Shown piece by piece: positions 3,713 to 41,348 of a stretch of DNA of 64,000 nt (within the stretch, counting starts at the first letter, position 1; every line of letters begins with the position of its first letter). The notes under the pieces are model-generated. The model worked only from the letters and a program-made list of their open reading frames with translations. It had not been told where the DNA came from and did no database searches. The position numbers and the translations under genes were made by a program. This stretch comes from a virus: positions 62,001-126,000 of IMG/VR virus record IMGVR_UViG_3300027754_005796. One strand, 5' to 3'.

Positions 3713-4153
3713 ATGGAAGTTTGCGATGCCGATGTCATGGATGATGAAGAGTGCGGAAATGGCGACTACCTCGGCCAATTGACTCTTGATCCTGTTAGAG
3801 AGAATAAGTTTTTTTACCAAAATCGTGAAATTGAAAAGGCCAAACATCACACGGATCGCTTTTTTGCCAATCATCGTTTGCACACGGGAGGCAAGATATC
3901 CAAGACTTTTTTGTATAATGAACGCAGAATGTACATGATTATGAACTATGATATCATGAGGGGAGTTTCTCATGCCTACAATCAGTTGGAGGCCGAGTTT
4001 GGATCGCCTCCCAAGAGCATAGCAGAGATAACTCAAGACATTCGGCTTGTGTTGGATGTTCTTAACATGCTGTCTCGTTCTGGTGTGCCTCAGGAGTATG
4101 CCGGGGGTATGCTTTGTGTTTATTTGGAATTAGTTGAAGGTGTAGCGTTTTGA
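3713..4153 (+). CDS. Hypothetical protein
   Basis: The ATG at 3713 is preceded by GGAGG with good spacing and is preferred over an in-frame upstream start. The 146-residue protein begins very acidic and then has a mixed helical region. No family is recognised. It is the first gene of a co-directional run to about 8.7 kb and overlaps the next gene by 4 nt. Confidence 0.55.
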   Translation: MEVCDADVMDDEECGNGDYLGQLTLDPVRENKFFYQNREIEKAKHHTDRFFANHRLHTGGKISKTFLYNERRMYMIMNYDIMRGVSHAYNQLEAEFGSPPKSIAEITQDIRLVLDVLNMLSRSGVPQEYAGGMLCVYLELVEGVAF

Positions 4154-4452
4154 ATCGTGATTGGCTGTTTCTCTCTAGGCAATATGAAACTTATCAGTTG
4201 CCTAGAGAGAAACTTTATTTGTTAAAATATTTTGATTCGCCAATTCAGGAGGCATTTCTTAAATATTTTTTTCTTTTTGGTGACACGGAAAACTTTGTAG
4301 ATCACACAGGCTTTTATTGCCAAGAGCGTTGGGTAAAGCTTCTTCACAAAAAGCTTCGTATTTTGCAAACCGCCAACGCCAAAGCCCGAGCAGAAATAGA
4401 CTTGGCTGGATTGGTTCTTATTGAAACAGGTAAATTTAAATATAAGCTCTAG
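4150..4452 (+). CDS. Hypothetical protein
   Basis: The 100-residue protein probably starts at a TTG that overlaps the preceding TGA stop, a usual coupling arrangement. It is rich in aromatic residues and helices. No family is recognised. It ends in an amber codon and the next gene is in the same frame five codons later. Confidence 0.5.
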   Translation: MNRDWLFLSRQYETYQLPREKLYLLKYFDSPIQEAFLKYFFLFGDTENFVDHTGFYCQERWVKLLHKKLRILQTANAKARAEIDLAGLVLIETGKFKYKL

Positions 4453-4467
4453 AGCGCTAAATATGGT

Positions 4468-4698
4468 ATGGCACTCATATCATTTAGCGATTACAGGAAA
4501 AAAATTGACGAGGCGAGCCCAACAACTCGTCTTCGCAATGGCATCATGATGGGAGCTTATCCCATGACTGCTGCTGGAATGTCTCGTTCAACTCCAAGTC
4601 CTGCCTTTGTTCAAAAGGCAATTGACACATTCGGAGCTCCAGAGCACCCTAATAAGAAAAAGCGCAGGAAGAAAAAACACAAGAAAAAACAGGACTGA
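4468..4698 (+). CDS. Small basic protein with FSDY-type N-terminus
   Basis: This 76-residue protein has an amphipathic N-terminus (MALISFSDYRKKIDEAS) and a C-terminal lysine/arginine tract. The basic tail suggests nucleic acid binding. No Shine-Dalgarno sequence is visible before the ATG. It lies in frame with the amber stop of the upstream gene, so it could also be made as a readthrough fusion. No family is recognised. Confidence 0.5.
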   Translation: MALISFSDYRKKIDEASPTTRLRNGIMMGAYPMTAAGMSRSTPSPAFVQKAIDTFGAPEHPNKKKRRKKKHKKKQD

Positions 4699-14659: not shown

Positions 14660-16426
14660 ATGGCAAAACAAAAACCAAAAAGAGTTGTAAAGCAAGAAAA
14701 ACCAGCACCAGAGGCAGGCAGCAGAAGACCCTTCCATCTTGAGTTCAAAACACCGGCTCAAAAGATGGCGTGGGCAGCATTCGATCAACACGATGTGTTG
14801 TTCTTGCTGGGCGCTCCGGGTACGGGAAAGGCTTTAACATTAAATTCAAAGCTTTATACTCGTAATAGATACATTTTGATGAGAGATGTAAAAGTTGGCG
14901 ATGAAATTGCCAATCCAGATGGTAATTTTTCTAAAGTAACAGGTGTTTTTCCTCAGGGAAAAAAGCAAGTTTGTCGAGTTCATTTTAGCGATGGTACTTA
15001 TGTAGATTGCTGCGAGGAACACCTGTGGACGATTTCTCAGACAGCTAGTAGAGGCTGGAAAAATCAGGTCAAGACAACTGCATATATTGAAAAAAATCAT
15101 TTAAGAAGCGATGGTCATAGAGCATTTTCTGTTATAGCCACTAAACCATTGAATTTTGATAGGCAAAAATTTTTGATAAATCCTTATTTGCTGGGTGTTT
15201 TTATTGCTGAAGGAAATTTGACTAATGCAAATGTAGTCTTTAGTTCTTGTGAGTCAGAAATTGTTTCGAGGATTGCAAATTCACTTTGCGAAGGTTATGT
15301 TTGTAAATCAAAAACAAAATTTAATACAGAAGCTGCCGATCATCGGATTGTAAAAAAGAATAGAAGTAGCTGTAAGAACATCTACAAAGAGAACTTAAAA
15401 GATTTGGGCCTTTGGGGTAAAAAGTCTTACGAAAAGTTTATACCGCTTGAATATCAATATTGTGCTGTCGATCAAAGAATCGCCTTGTTGCAAGGACTTA
15501 TGGATGGTGATGGCACAATAGATAAAAACGGTTCTTGTAGTTACTGCACAACTTCATACCAATTGGCTCAAGATTTTTGTCAATTGATATATTCTTTGGG
15601 TGGATCGACAAAAATAAAGATAAAAAAAGGTTCTGCTAAACCCGATGGTACTCGTCACAGAATTTCCTATAGATGTCATGTGAATCTTCCGGCAGAAATA
15701 GAAATTTTTTTCTTGAATAGAAAAAAAAGATTGGTAAAAGCAAGGTCCAAGTATTTCCCCAAAAGAATGATCGACCGTGTGGAAAGATTGAATTACGAAG
15801 ACATGCAATGCATTACTGTTGATCATAAAGATTCTTTGTTTTTAACTGACAATTTTACTGTGACTCACAATTCACATCTGGGTTGTGCTTTTGCAATCAG
15901 CGAGGTACTTGCAAAAAGAAAACAAACAATTGTTCTAACAAGGCCGACTGTGGAGGCTGGAGGGGAAAGCCTAGGATTTTTGCCGGGAAATGCAGATGAA
16001 AAAATCCATCCTTACATGCTCCCACTTTTTGACTGCATGGACAGGTGCTTGGGGAAATTTTCGCCTCAGAGAGAAATAATTAACAAAAGCGTTGAACTGG
16101 CTCCCATGTGTTTCATGAGAGGTCGCACATTCCACGATTCGGTGTGTATTTTGGACGAAGCTCAAAATTGTAATTTTACTCAGTTGAAATTATTCTTAAC
16201 GAGATTTGGAGAGAACAGCAAAGTCATCATCACGGGAGACCCGATGCAAAGTGATTTGCATCCTAGGGACAGAGCTTTGATGAATGTTGTTGATAGGCTT
16301 TCTACATTGAAGGGTGTGGGTGTTATACAGTTCAAATCCAACGCAATCGTGCGACATCCGCTAATTGCTGGTATTCTCGAAAAATTGGAAGCAAAGGAGG
16401 AGCATGGCTCTAGTAGTACCGAATGA
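14660..16426 (+). CDS. phoH: PhoH-like ATPase interrupted by an intein
   Basis: The exteins (residues 1-57 and 405-588, 241 aa in total) form a PhoH-family P-loop ATPase. The Walker A sequence GAPGTGK is completed by Ser405 after splicing, followed by LTRPTVEAGGESLGFLPG, the Walker B strand CILDEAQN and VIITGDPMQSDL. PhoH proteins are widespread in phages and related to RNA helicases/NTPases; their role is unsettled. The intein splits the catalytic P-loop exactly, so ATPase activity requires splicing. It is followed with overlap by a putative structural gene. Confidence 0.92.
   Translation: MAKQKPKRVVKQEKPAPEAGSRRPFHLEFKTPAQKMAWAAFDQHDVLFLLGAPGTGKALTLNSKLYTRNRYILMRDVKVGDEIANPDGNFSKVTGVFPQGKKQVCRVHFSDGTYVDCCEEHLWTISQTASRGWKNQVKTTAYIEKNHLRSDGHRAFSVIATKPLNFDRQKFLINPYLLGVFIAEGNLTNANVVFSSCESEIVSRIANSLCEGYVCKSKTKFNTEAADHRIVKKNRSSCKNIYKENLKDLGLWGKKSYEKFIPLEYQYCAVDQRIALLQGLMDGDGTIDKNGSCSYCTTSYQLAQDFCQLIYSLGGSTKIKIKKGSAKPDGTRHRISYRCHVNLPAEIEIFFLNRKKRLVKARSKYFPKRMIDRVERLNYEDMQCITVDHKDSLFLTDNFTVTHNSHLGCAFAISEVLAKRKQTIVLTRPTVEAGGESLGFLPGNADEKIHPYMLPLFDCMDRCLGKFSPQREIINKSVELAPMCFMRGRTFHDSVCILDEAQNCNFTQLKLFLTRFGENSKVIITGDPMQSDLHPRDRALMNVVDRLSTLKGVGVIQFKSNAIVRHPLIAGILEKLEAKEEHGSSSTE
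14831..15871 (+). mobile_element. Class 3-type intein with LAGLIDADG homing endonuclease
   Basis: The intein is 347 residues, beginning with Ala (ALTLNSKLY) instead of Cys/Ser and ending THN before extein Ser+1. It has the features of class 3 inteins: no N-terminal nucleophile, Trp66 after the block B His (HLW), Cys327 in block F (QCITV) and Thr345 before the final HN (WCT set). Two LAGLIDADG-type motifs, LLGVFIAEG (120-128) and LLQGLMDGDG, mark a homing endonuclease. In this class the block F Cys starts splicing. The insertion in the P-loop of an ATPase is a classic intein site. Confidence 0.85.
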
Positions 16427-40270: not shown

Positions 40271-40404
40271 TTTGAGATTTTAAATTAAATTACCCGAAAT
40301 TTGCTTTAGTCACTTTGGCATTATGCACATATTATAGCATCAAAAATATTTTTTGGTAGGACAATAATACATATAATAGTATGTCCTACTATTGGTGTCT
40401 CATG

Positions 40405-41148
40405 TATAGAAGTAAAATCTGGTCTATTCCAACCGAAAAATTCAATGAACTTGTTTCAAACTCCACATCTATTGGTCAAATATTAAAGCATTTTGGACTT
40501 AGCAATAAAGGTGGGAATAGCAAGACGGTTCAGAGAAGGGCGCAAATTGAAAATATTGACATCTCACATATAAAGCTAGGTATTAATTCAAACAAAGGAA
40601 GAGTTTTTGGTCATAGAAAAAACCATGATGAAATTTTCAAGGAAAATTCGTCTACTTCAAGAGGAAGTATAAAAGCAAAATTAATAAAATATAACTTGAT
40701 ACCATATGTTTGTAAAATTTGTGGACTTGGAGATAAATGGAATGGTAAAGATATTGCATTACAACTAGATCATGAAAATGGAATTCCAAATGACAACAGA
40801 ATAAAAAATTTAAGGTTTTTGTGTCCTAATTGCCATAGTCAAACTGAAACATTTTCCGGCAAAAGAAATCATGAGTTTATCATTCGTAAAAACAAAGAAT
40901 TGTTAAACCTCAATTGTCAGTATTGCAATATTGTTTTTAAAACATCAAATAATAAGAAAAAATATTGTAGTAAAAGTTGTGTTTCAAAAAAAAGAAAAAA
41001 TAATATTTGTTTAGATAAAAAAACACTAGAGAAAGAAGTTGAGGTGTGCTCAAATATAAAAATTGGAGAAAAATATGGGGTTTCTGAAGCTACTGTAAGA
41101 AATTGGTTAAAGAAATTTGATATTGATCGTAAACAAAAAATTAAATAA
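40405..41148 (+). CDS. HNH endonuclease with C-terminal helix-turn-helix
   Basis: The central HNH domain reads CKICG, LQLDHENG, FLCPNCHSQ (His-Asn-His with two CxxC zinc knuckles). It is followed by a second CxxC pair (CQYCNIVF, KYCSKSC) and a C-terminal helix-turn-helix (IGEKYGVSEATVRNWLKKFDI). This domain order is typical of free-standing homing endonucleases. The region is more AT-rich than its neighbours, a sign of separate origin. It lies next to the tRNA genes, and a related fragment sits at 41445-41660. The start may be ATG 40381 instead. Confidence 0.85.
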   Translation, partial: YRSKIWSIPTEKFNELVSNSTSIGQILKHFGLSNKGGNSKTVQRRAQIENIDISHIKLGINSNKGRVFGHRKNHDEIFKENSSTSRGSIKAKLIKYNLIPYVCKICGLGDKWNGKDIALQLDHENGIPNDNRIKNLRFLCPNCHSQTETFSGKRNHEFIIRKNKELLNLNCQYCNIVFKTSNNKKKYCSKSCVSKKRKNNICLDKKTLEKEVEVCSNIKIGEKYGVSEATVRNWLKKFDIDRKQKIK

Positions 41149-41152
41149 GAAA

Positions 41153-41296
41153 ATGCCCGAACAGGACTCGAACCTGTACAAAGAGTGCCATTCCGGGCTA
41201 AAGGAATCGAACCTTTATTTCTTGCTTAGAGCAGGCGTTTTGACCGCTTTAAACTAAGCCCGTAAAACTCTTGTGCTACCATTACACTATCGGGCA
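41153..41296 (-). tRNA. tRNA-Gln(UUG) with its anticodon loop interrupted by a nested tRNA-like gene
   Basis: On the minus strand the outer cloverleaf is complete except for the loop. Acceptor TGCCCGA/TCGGGCA pairs 7 of 7, D stem GTGT/GCAC 4 of 4 (one wobble) with AATGGTA loop, anticodon stem AGAGT/ACTCT 5 of 5, and T stem ACAGG/CCTGT 5 of 5 with TTCGAGT. The loop reads TTT, then a 73 nt insert, then TGGC; joining gives TTTTGGC, a normal 7 nt loop with anticodon TTG. A U1-A72 first pair also fits Gln. The 5' half is 41264-41296 and the 3' half 41153-41190. No CCA is encoded. Confidence 0.8.
41192..41263 (-). tRNA. Nested tRNA-like gene inside tRNA-Gln, possible CUA (amber) anticodon
   Basis: The 72 nt insert folds as its own tRNA. 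Acceptor ACGGGCT/AGCCCGG pairs 6 of 7 with A as discriminator, T8-A9 are normal, D arm is GTTT/AAAC with GG in the loop, T stem AAAGG/CCTTT is perfect and the T loop is TTCGATT. The anticodon arm is weak. A 7 nt loop CTCTAAG would give anticodon CTA (reads UAG); a better-paired alternative (CCTGC/GCAAG with one C-A mismatch) leaves only a 5 nt loop. It may be a suppressor tRNA or a tRNA-derived processing element. Confidence 0.65.
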
Positions 41297-41304
41297 GTCA
41301 TTAA

Positions 41305-41334
41305 ATTGTAAGCGTTAGCTTGACAAATTATCAA
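41305..41334 (-). promoter_or_regulatory. Sigma-70 promoter for the nested tRNA gene
   Basis: On the minus strand TTGATA (41329-41334) and TACAAT (41305-41310) are 18 nt apart, each 5 of 6 to consensus. Transcription would start close to the tRNA 5' end at 41296. It overlaps the opposite promoter for tRNA-Arg. Confidence 0.7.
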
Positions 41335-41348
41335 CAGTAATTTATACT
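41320..41348 (+). promoter_or_regulatory. Sigma-70 promoter for tRNA-Arg
   Basis: Perfect -35 TTGACA (41320-41325), exactly 17 nt spacing and -10 TATACT (41343-41348, 5 of 6). The tRNA begins 15 nt after the -10 box. It is the best host-type promoter in the window. Its -35 overlaps the spacer and -35 area of the divergent tRNA promoter. Confidence 0.82.

Follow-up and report, generated by a model that had tools for sequence, protein, structure and literature searches.

A tRNA gene that carries a second, tRNA-like element within its own anticodon loop raises the question of whether the outer gene is dead, or whether it yields a working tRNA by splicing. Such a gene is present in a stretch of 64,000 nucleotides (the window) that corresponds to positions 62001-126000 of a 172,833-bp IMG/VR virus record (G000:C1). 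We have examined its structure and genomic setting, the occurrence of similar genes elsewhere, and the means by which the insert might be removed.

Anatomy of the nested tRNA gene

The nested gene is read on the minus strand from 41296 to 41154, with the discriminator at 41153, and its layout is TGCCCGA-TA-GTGT-AATGGTA-GCAC-A-AGAGT-TTT-[73 nt]-TGGC-ACTCT-TTGT-ACAGG-TTCGAGT-CCTGT-TCGGGCA. In computed stems the outer acceptor (TGCCCGA/TCGGGCA) forms seven of seven pairs, the D stem (GTGT/GCAC) four of four with one G-T, and the anticodon (AGAGT/ACTCT) and T (ACAGG/CCTGT) stems five of five each. The initial annotation had described a tRNA-Gln(UUG) with 7, 4, 5 and 5 pairs and an anticodon loop split TTT|TGGC by a 73-nt insert, and both the sequence and the stem computation confirm every element of that description. 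The features of the Rfam tRNA family RF00005, namely a 7/4/5/5 cloverleaf, a T-loop and a 7-nt anticodon loop, are found in the outer gene only with the insert removed.

Default ARAGORN and Rfam searches call the inner element alone and miss the outer gene. ARAGORN run with introns allowed does recover the outer gene, as c[41153,41296] with an intron of 73 nt; once the insert is deleted, such that the loop reads TTTTGGC, it reports a tRNA-Gln(TTG) with a score of 122.8, compared to 109.4 for the inner element. Of the covariance scoring that had been proposed as a check, Rfam gives a score for the inner element, and the score of the spliced outer gene comes from ARAGORN. BLAST aligns the outer gene without its insert, at 77-80% identity and across 70 of 70 positions, to phage genes annotated as tRNA-Gln, and the tRNA-Gln anticodon loop of mycobacteriophage Fowlmouth, the one phage gene that was read, is TTTTGGT; comparison with phage tRNA-Gln places the insert between U34 and U35. 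The intact stems and the full-length match also sustain the earlier argument that the outer tRNA is not a dead relic.

The inner element is labeled 'tRNA-Pyl' (CTA) by ARAGORN and matches RF00005 with 45.2 bits against a cut-off of 29. It has a U at position -1, a 7-position acceptor whose first pair (A1.G72) is mismatched, and a 5-bp T stem; the acceptor-T helix is kept and three of the five anticodon-stem pairs form. The claim that the insert is tRNA-like with arms of its own stands as regards the tRNA fold and the acceptor-T helix, but the insert is not an intact tRNA.

When 2.7 Mb was dinucleotide-shuffled five times and scanned on both strands, a detector of anticodon-loop inserts gave no matches. 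In 300 trials that kept the real 3' half of the window locus and shuffled just what lies upstream of it, none attained the score of the locus. An ordinary tandem tRNA pair was rejected for this locus, and a circularly permuted or split tRNA is ruled out, as the 5' half precedes the 3' half by 73 nt on the same strand. Scanned with Rfam at gathering thresholds, the window returns two tRNA matches only and no recognizable group I intron core (RF00028); given this and an insert of just 73 nt, the view that this is not a group I intron holds. The observation of a tRNA within a tRNA in the window is confirmed, and was understated.

Table 1. Nested tRNA gene and neighboring features, in window positions.
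Feature	Position	Strand	Basis
5' half of outer tRNA-Gln (acceptor 5' strand, D arm, anticodon 5' strand, loop TTT)	41264..41296	-	Sequence; computed stems
Presumed intron: 73-nt tRNA-like insert (acceptor, D arm, weak anticodon arm with CTA, T arm), plus A73 A74	41191..41263	-	Rfam tRNA 45.2 bits at 41263-41192; ARAGORN 41264-41191
3' half of outer tRNA-Gln (loop TGGC, anticodon 3' strand, T arm, acceptor 3' strand, discriminator T)	41153..41190	-	Sequence; ARAGORN with introns 41153-41296
Sigma-70-like promoter TTGATA-N18-TACAAT, just upstream of nested gene	41305..41334	-	10/12 consensus bases
Divergent promoter-like site TTGACA-N17-TATACT, for neighboring tRNA-Arg	41320..41348	+	11/12 consensus bases
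Ordinary tRNA-Arg(TCT), sole other tRNA called in the phage record	41362..41445	+	ARAGORN/Rfam
HNH endonuclease with C-terminal HTH	40381..41148	+	PHROG HNH, E 6e-47

The nested gene is oriented opposite to the surrounding genes, and tRNA calls across the entire phage record number just two (Table 1). Three sigma-70-like sites occur in the region where 1.5 are expected, and the promoter of the nested gene is weak evidence alone. The HNH-HTH gene ends 4-5 nt from the outer tRNA, and its product is a possible homing neighbor of the nested gene. The phage shows no TAG recoding, with 31 of 183 ORFs ending in TAG and a coding fraction of 0.850 under the standard code versus 0.853 with TAG as sense, and a suppressor (CUA) or Pyl role for the inner element is therefore rejected. 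A search for relatives of this phage by way of its 967-aa protein found none. Elsewhere in the genome, a PhoH-like protein frame (window 14660-16426, plus strand) holds a LAGLIDADG homing endonuclease domain and is likely to contain an intein, and a tmRNA (L291 10266-10616; G000:C1:50266-50616) encodes a tag ending in DETVHALAA.

Recurrence in phages and in a bacterial tRNA-Lys gene

IMG/VR was searched for a signature of two T-arms closer together than tandem tRNAs permit, followed by the anticodon-loop-insert detector; because a T-arm within the insert was a requirement of these scans, a 'tRNA-like' character is partly built into the sample and T-arm-less inserts are under-sampled. These pattern scans yielded about 15 further insert-bearing tRNA families, mostly in phages, with host tRNAs that differ between families and insert sequences that are unrelated. 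The arrangement, which it had been proposed to seek in related phages, thus recurs independently in phages and in one bacterium, while the searches turned up nothing closely related to the nested gene of the window itself.

The inserts take three forms: a full nested tRNA, a nested tRNA with an anticodon loop of 3-5 nt, and a bare minihelix of acceptor and T-arm. Full nested tRNAs include a Phe(GAA) tRNA that splits an Arg(TCT) gene in L196, which reads CTT|...ACCA|CTAA with an encoded CCA, and in L053, which differs by one base; others lie in Arg genes (L132/L135/L148), in probable Val genes (L127/L142) and in L021. An Asn(GTT) gene split CTGT|TAA contains an element that has lost its anticodon and has a 4-nt inner loop in L124 and three identical copies, and in L077 and L207 the gene with the same split contains only an acceptor and T arm. 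Minihelices are also seen in an Ile(TAT) gene (L057, with CCA) and a Thr gene (L155). There are two variants, one with a single extra arm and extra sequence 5' of the inner helix (Asn; L140/L144/L145/L288), and one with an extra 5' segment that forms a 5' hairpin (Thr in L106/L122/L138, and a second, Lys gene in L106). The L140 phage contig also carries a tmRNA (4139-4492, 98.7 bits).

None of twelve insert sequences had a BLAST match among 50,697 records of isolated phages, and the L196 nested gene matched only ordinary tRNAs there. Just four stretches matched a full-nest-like pattern in 257 Gb of prokaryotic genomes, and GGTARCRC-type pattern scans for Gln homologues produced no new convincing nested case. 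On inspection L208, L228, L094, L183 and L013 proved to be false positives arising from adjacent tRNAs, duplications of tRNA 3' ends or partial tRNA copies, and an archaeal locus with a 28-nt insert (L284) was set aside as probably a bulge-helix-bulge (BHB) intron; L068, L091, L157, L159 and L102 contain inserts and were left out of the supporting cases. A Parcubacteria MAG (L283, 1475-1604, minus strand) has an apparently intact Asn(GTT) tRNA inside an outer cloverleaf with perfect stems, beside aroC/trpS, for which a canonical spliced loop could not be derived. Inserts of other kinds were also noted. A phage tRNA in L107 (6969-7099) and L200 (4175-4305, minus strand) has a 58-nt anticodon-loop insert (CTTTGGGAAAA...TTTTCCGAGATTAA) with no T-arm, and one phage (L233/L232; G008:C1:103286-103405, 110845-110967 and 112304-112418) has several tRNA matches of 115-123 nt, one with a long hairpin in its anticodon loop. 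Such T-arm-less inserts may be a sign of a wider class of short tRNA introns.

The bacterial case is a tRNA-Lys gene (L282; G060:C346:15410-15552) on contig JACOUH010000094.1 of a Planctomycetota MAG, with a 71-nt tRNA-like insert whose inner anticodon loop is 3 nt. Several genomes of the same taxonomic family contain both halves as one contiguous tRNA-Lys gene, and this empty site fixes the insert exactly between U34 and U35, like the 34|35 site in the window, and fixes its 3' boundary as well. Among 54 Rfam tRNA hits in the MAG, ARAGORN assigns genes to all other amino acids but Ile and finds no other Lys, and BLAST with the contiguous Lys sequence recovers only Trp, Asn, His and Val relatives, suggesting that the interrupted gene is the only tRNA-Lys of this organism. 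The MAG is incomplete, with Ile, Ala(TGC) and two of the expected three CAT tRNAs also missing, and the lack of another detected Lys gene is accordingly suggestive and not proof; Ile and Ala(TGC) tRNA genes are often located within rRNA operons. The MAG encodes a T4 Rnl1-family ligase (67.7 bits) and RtcB, the latter (G060:C384:699-3533) split inside one 1034-aa frame, probably by an intein. In two relatives, L396 (G153:C203:45760-46180) and L400 (G149), tRNA-Lys is interrupted in the same anticodon loop; the G153 insert of ~240 nt has a weak group I match (RF00028, 22.5 bits versus a cut-off of 50).

Across these cases the inner elements are reduced and the outer tRNAs are maintained. The outer stems of nine tabulated cases are all paired except at one T-stem position. 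The inner anticodon loop comprises 3 nt in L282, 4 nt in L124, 5 nt in L132 and 6 nt in L127, inner position 33 is an A in L021 and L135, and the inserts of L077, L207, L057 and L155 have lost the D and anticodon arms and kept the acceptor+T helix. Compensatory changes in the outer stems, which had been named as a further check, were found: the Thr family (L106/L122/L138) has five two-sided changes with no outer pair broken, one of them in the anticodon stem and thus spanning the insert, and the Asn family has one in the outer acceptor. The inner acceptor and T stems of the Thr family have two such changes and the inner T stem of the Asn family one. As read from these sequences, decay inside with pairing outside is the reverse of what would be expected had the outer gene died and the inner tRNA stayed active, and the inner element looks more like a processing device than a second working tRNA.

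A candidate splicing pathway and its alternatives

We consider it reasonably probable, on the sequence features described above, that the insert acts as an intron and at the same time as a pre-tRNA-like substrate, removed by RNase P together with tRNase Z or trimming, after which the outer halves are ligated. RNase P leaves a 3'-OH and tRNase Z a 5'-phosphate, Rnl1-type ligases join such ends, and an acceptor+T helix is a minimal RNase P substrate. In a single transcript the inner acceptor-T helix would fold while held within the outer cloverleaf; RNase P would cut before inner nucleotide 1 to leave a 3'-OH on the outer 5' half, and tRNase Z or an exonuclease would cut or trim just past the inner discriminator to leave a 5'-phosphate on the outer 3' half. 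Base pairing in the acceptor and anticodon stems would hold the two halves together, and an RNA ligase acting on 5'-P and 3'-OH ends, here the T4 Rnl1-type enzyme that the phage itself encodes, would seal them to form tRNA-Gln(UUG). The sequences themselves establish how the gene is built and that it recurs, that the outer stems of related families are under selection, that the inner anticodon arm has decayed, and that a ligase gene is present; we infer every one of the cleavage and ligation steps, and the identity of the enzymes acting in them.

Cuts that take out exactly the stretch from inner nucleotide 1 through position 73 (or through the CCA) restore a 7-nt loop in five cases: CTGTTAA for Asn in L077, L124 and L207, CTTATAA for Ile in L057, and CTTCTAA for Arg in L196. 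The window, L155 and L282 each have a 3' boundary one nucleotide beyond the discriminator, and L132 has it one nucleotide beyond the CCA. For the window, a tRNase Z cut after the discriminator would give an 8-nt loop, and the cut would have to fall one base further on to give the 7-nt loop of tRNA-Gln; the 3' cut as originally predicted is therefore one base off, an offset shared by the L282 tRNA-Lys insert. Insert boundaries fall at positions 73, 74, 76 or 77. A 7-nt loop is not restored in the nested cases L021 (10 nt) and L127 (8 nt), and in the Thr/Lys (L106/L122/L138) and Asn (L140/L144/L145/L288) variants RNase P alone would leave extra sequence on the 5' half. The base preceding the 5' cut is a U in 10 of 12 tabulated cases, although U33 and U34 make this partly expected; a U before the cut suits bacterial RNase P.

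An RNA ligase of the 3'-OH/5'-P joining type, on which the original proposal depended, is indeed encoded by the phage. It lies outside the window (G000:C1:132564-133658), is 364 aa long, matches PF09511 with 59.5 bits against a cut-off of 28.3 and the PDB structure of T4 Rnl1 (2c5u) with an E value of 2.3e-23, and carries the motifs KLDGS, EGYV and KAK; PF09511 was found in 0 of 14 control genomes. Ligase genes have a modest association with insert-bearing contigs, being present in 9 of 12 that are at least 80 kb long versus 14 of 38 control phage contigs (Fisher p = 0.02), or, when each insert family is represented by a single contig, in 7 of 10 (p = 0.06). No PF09511/PF09414 ligase was found in the insert-bearing contigs L021, L077 and L122, which are of at least 80 kb and may be fragments.

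Three other explanations warrant consideration. Anticodon loops are a common site of recombination and known targets of integration, and a tRNA gene may simply have landed in that of tRNA-Gln by selfish or accidental insertion, leaving an outer gene that is dead or dying and an inner RNA that alone is made, perhaps as an amber suppressor. It is the inner element that gene finders call, and an HNH endonuclease adjoins the nested gene, yet in the window it is the outer tRNA that is perfect and the inner one that is damaged, the phage does not recode TAG, inner anticodon arms vanish across families while outer stems stay paired and covary, and the only detected tRNA-Lys of a bacterium has the same architecture; we find simple insertion quite improbable. 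Much the least credible is that a single gene serves two tRNAs, the inner one being released in working form and the outer one repaired afterwards. The inner Phe(GAA) of L196/L053 and the inner Asn(GTT) of L283 do look intact, but most inner elements could not decode, having shrunken loops, an A at position 33 or missing arms, and the inner anticodon stem in the window is broken.

It is also unlikely that the intron is excised by some other activity, be it self-cleavage or self-splicing of an RNA or a dedicated endonuclease, from phage or host, that acts in the anticodon loop, with the tRNA-like fold serving for folding, protection or recognition. This would accommodate the short phage tRNA inserts that are not tRNA-like (the 58-nt insert of L107/L200 and the hairpins of G008), the extra 5' hairpin of the Thr/Lys class, and boundaries that differ among 73, 74, 76 and 77. 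Against it, precisely the acceptor+T helix is conserved, boundaries are junction-exact in five families, and Rfam gives no ribozyme match in the window (gathering threshold) or in five insert-bearing loci (E up to 0.1).

Returning to excision by tRNA end-processing enzymes, recurrence in other phages and in the only detected tRNA-Lys gene of a bacterium suggests a kind of RNA splicing that has not been described. A broader proposal, for which we see belief and doubt evenly balanced, is that phages and bacteria have a further mode of tRNA splicing in which tRNA-like introns are cut by tRNA end-processing enzymes and sealed by 5'-P/3'-OH ligases; that these introns are born when one tRNA gene lands in the anticodon of another and then shrink to an acceptor-T minihelix; and that at least one bacterium depends on splicing for its only tRNA-Lys. 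If true, a pre-tRNA intron would represent a new intron class needing neither a ribozyme nor a dedicated endonuclease and would offer a simple route for the origin of introns, the Rnl1-type ligases of phages and bacteria would gain a role in gene expression beyond damage repair, and standard gene finders would misreport nested genes by picking up the inner element and overlooking the outer tRNA.

Relationship to known systems

The window gene is a member of a recurrent class of tRNA-in-tRNA genes that, as far as could be searched, is undescribed. A body of 5.39 million open full-text papers yielded no description of a nested-tRNA intron, and since most subscription papers and all preprints fall outside that scope, priority is uncertain. 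According to a review of tRNA gene diversity, the only notable interruptions of bacterial tRNA genes are self-splicing introns of groups I and II (PMC4033280). Like the nested inserts, group I introns (for example in bacterial tRNA-Leu UAA and tRNA-fMet) break up the anticodon loop in a tRNA that is normal in other respects, and the G153 insert with its weak group I match sits in the same tRNA-Lys loop as that of L282; their catalytic core, however, comprises ~100 nt plus helices, whereas the window insert has 73 nt, a tRNA fold and no Intron_gpI match. Archaeal and eukaryotic BHB introns, whose exon-intron junctions have two 3-nt bulges on either side of a 4-bp helix, are likewise short anticodon-loop introns removed by protein cutting and ligation, as envisaged here, but they lie at 37/38 and are cut by a tRNA-splicing endonuclease that leaves 2',3'-cyclic phosphate and 5'-OH ends, in contrast to the 3'-OH and 5'-P ends predicted for the nested inserts, which lie at 34|35, 35|36 or 36|37 in phages and bacteria.

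Theta ribozymes at the 3' ends of phage tRNAs also reflect a non-standard maturation of phage tRNAs, and RNA ligase genes are reported to be enriched alongside them (PMC10879173). These ribozymes adjoin tRNAs and do not lie inside the anticodon loop, and the window has no ribozyme family match. In phage T4, the damage that Rnl1 repairs is inflicted by a host nuclease, and Pnkp heals the ends. The repair of tRNA-Lys after PrrC cleavage, in which Rnl1 seals a break in the anticodon loop, is a close parallel in view of the Rnl1-family ligase of the window's phage, but it is a response to damage, whereas the break in the nested gene would belong to gene expression and its ends would need no healing. 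In circularly permuted tRNA genes (PMC3978253) RNase P and tRNase Z remove an intervening sequence inside the precursor and ligation takes place, as we propose for the nested genes; there the RNase P substrate is the tRNA's own mature acceptor, whereas in the nested genes the halves are in normal order and the substrate would be the intervening sequence itself.
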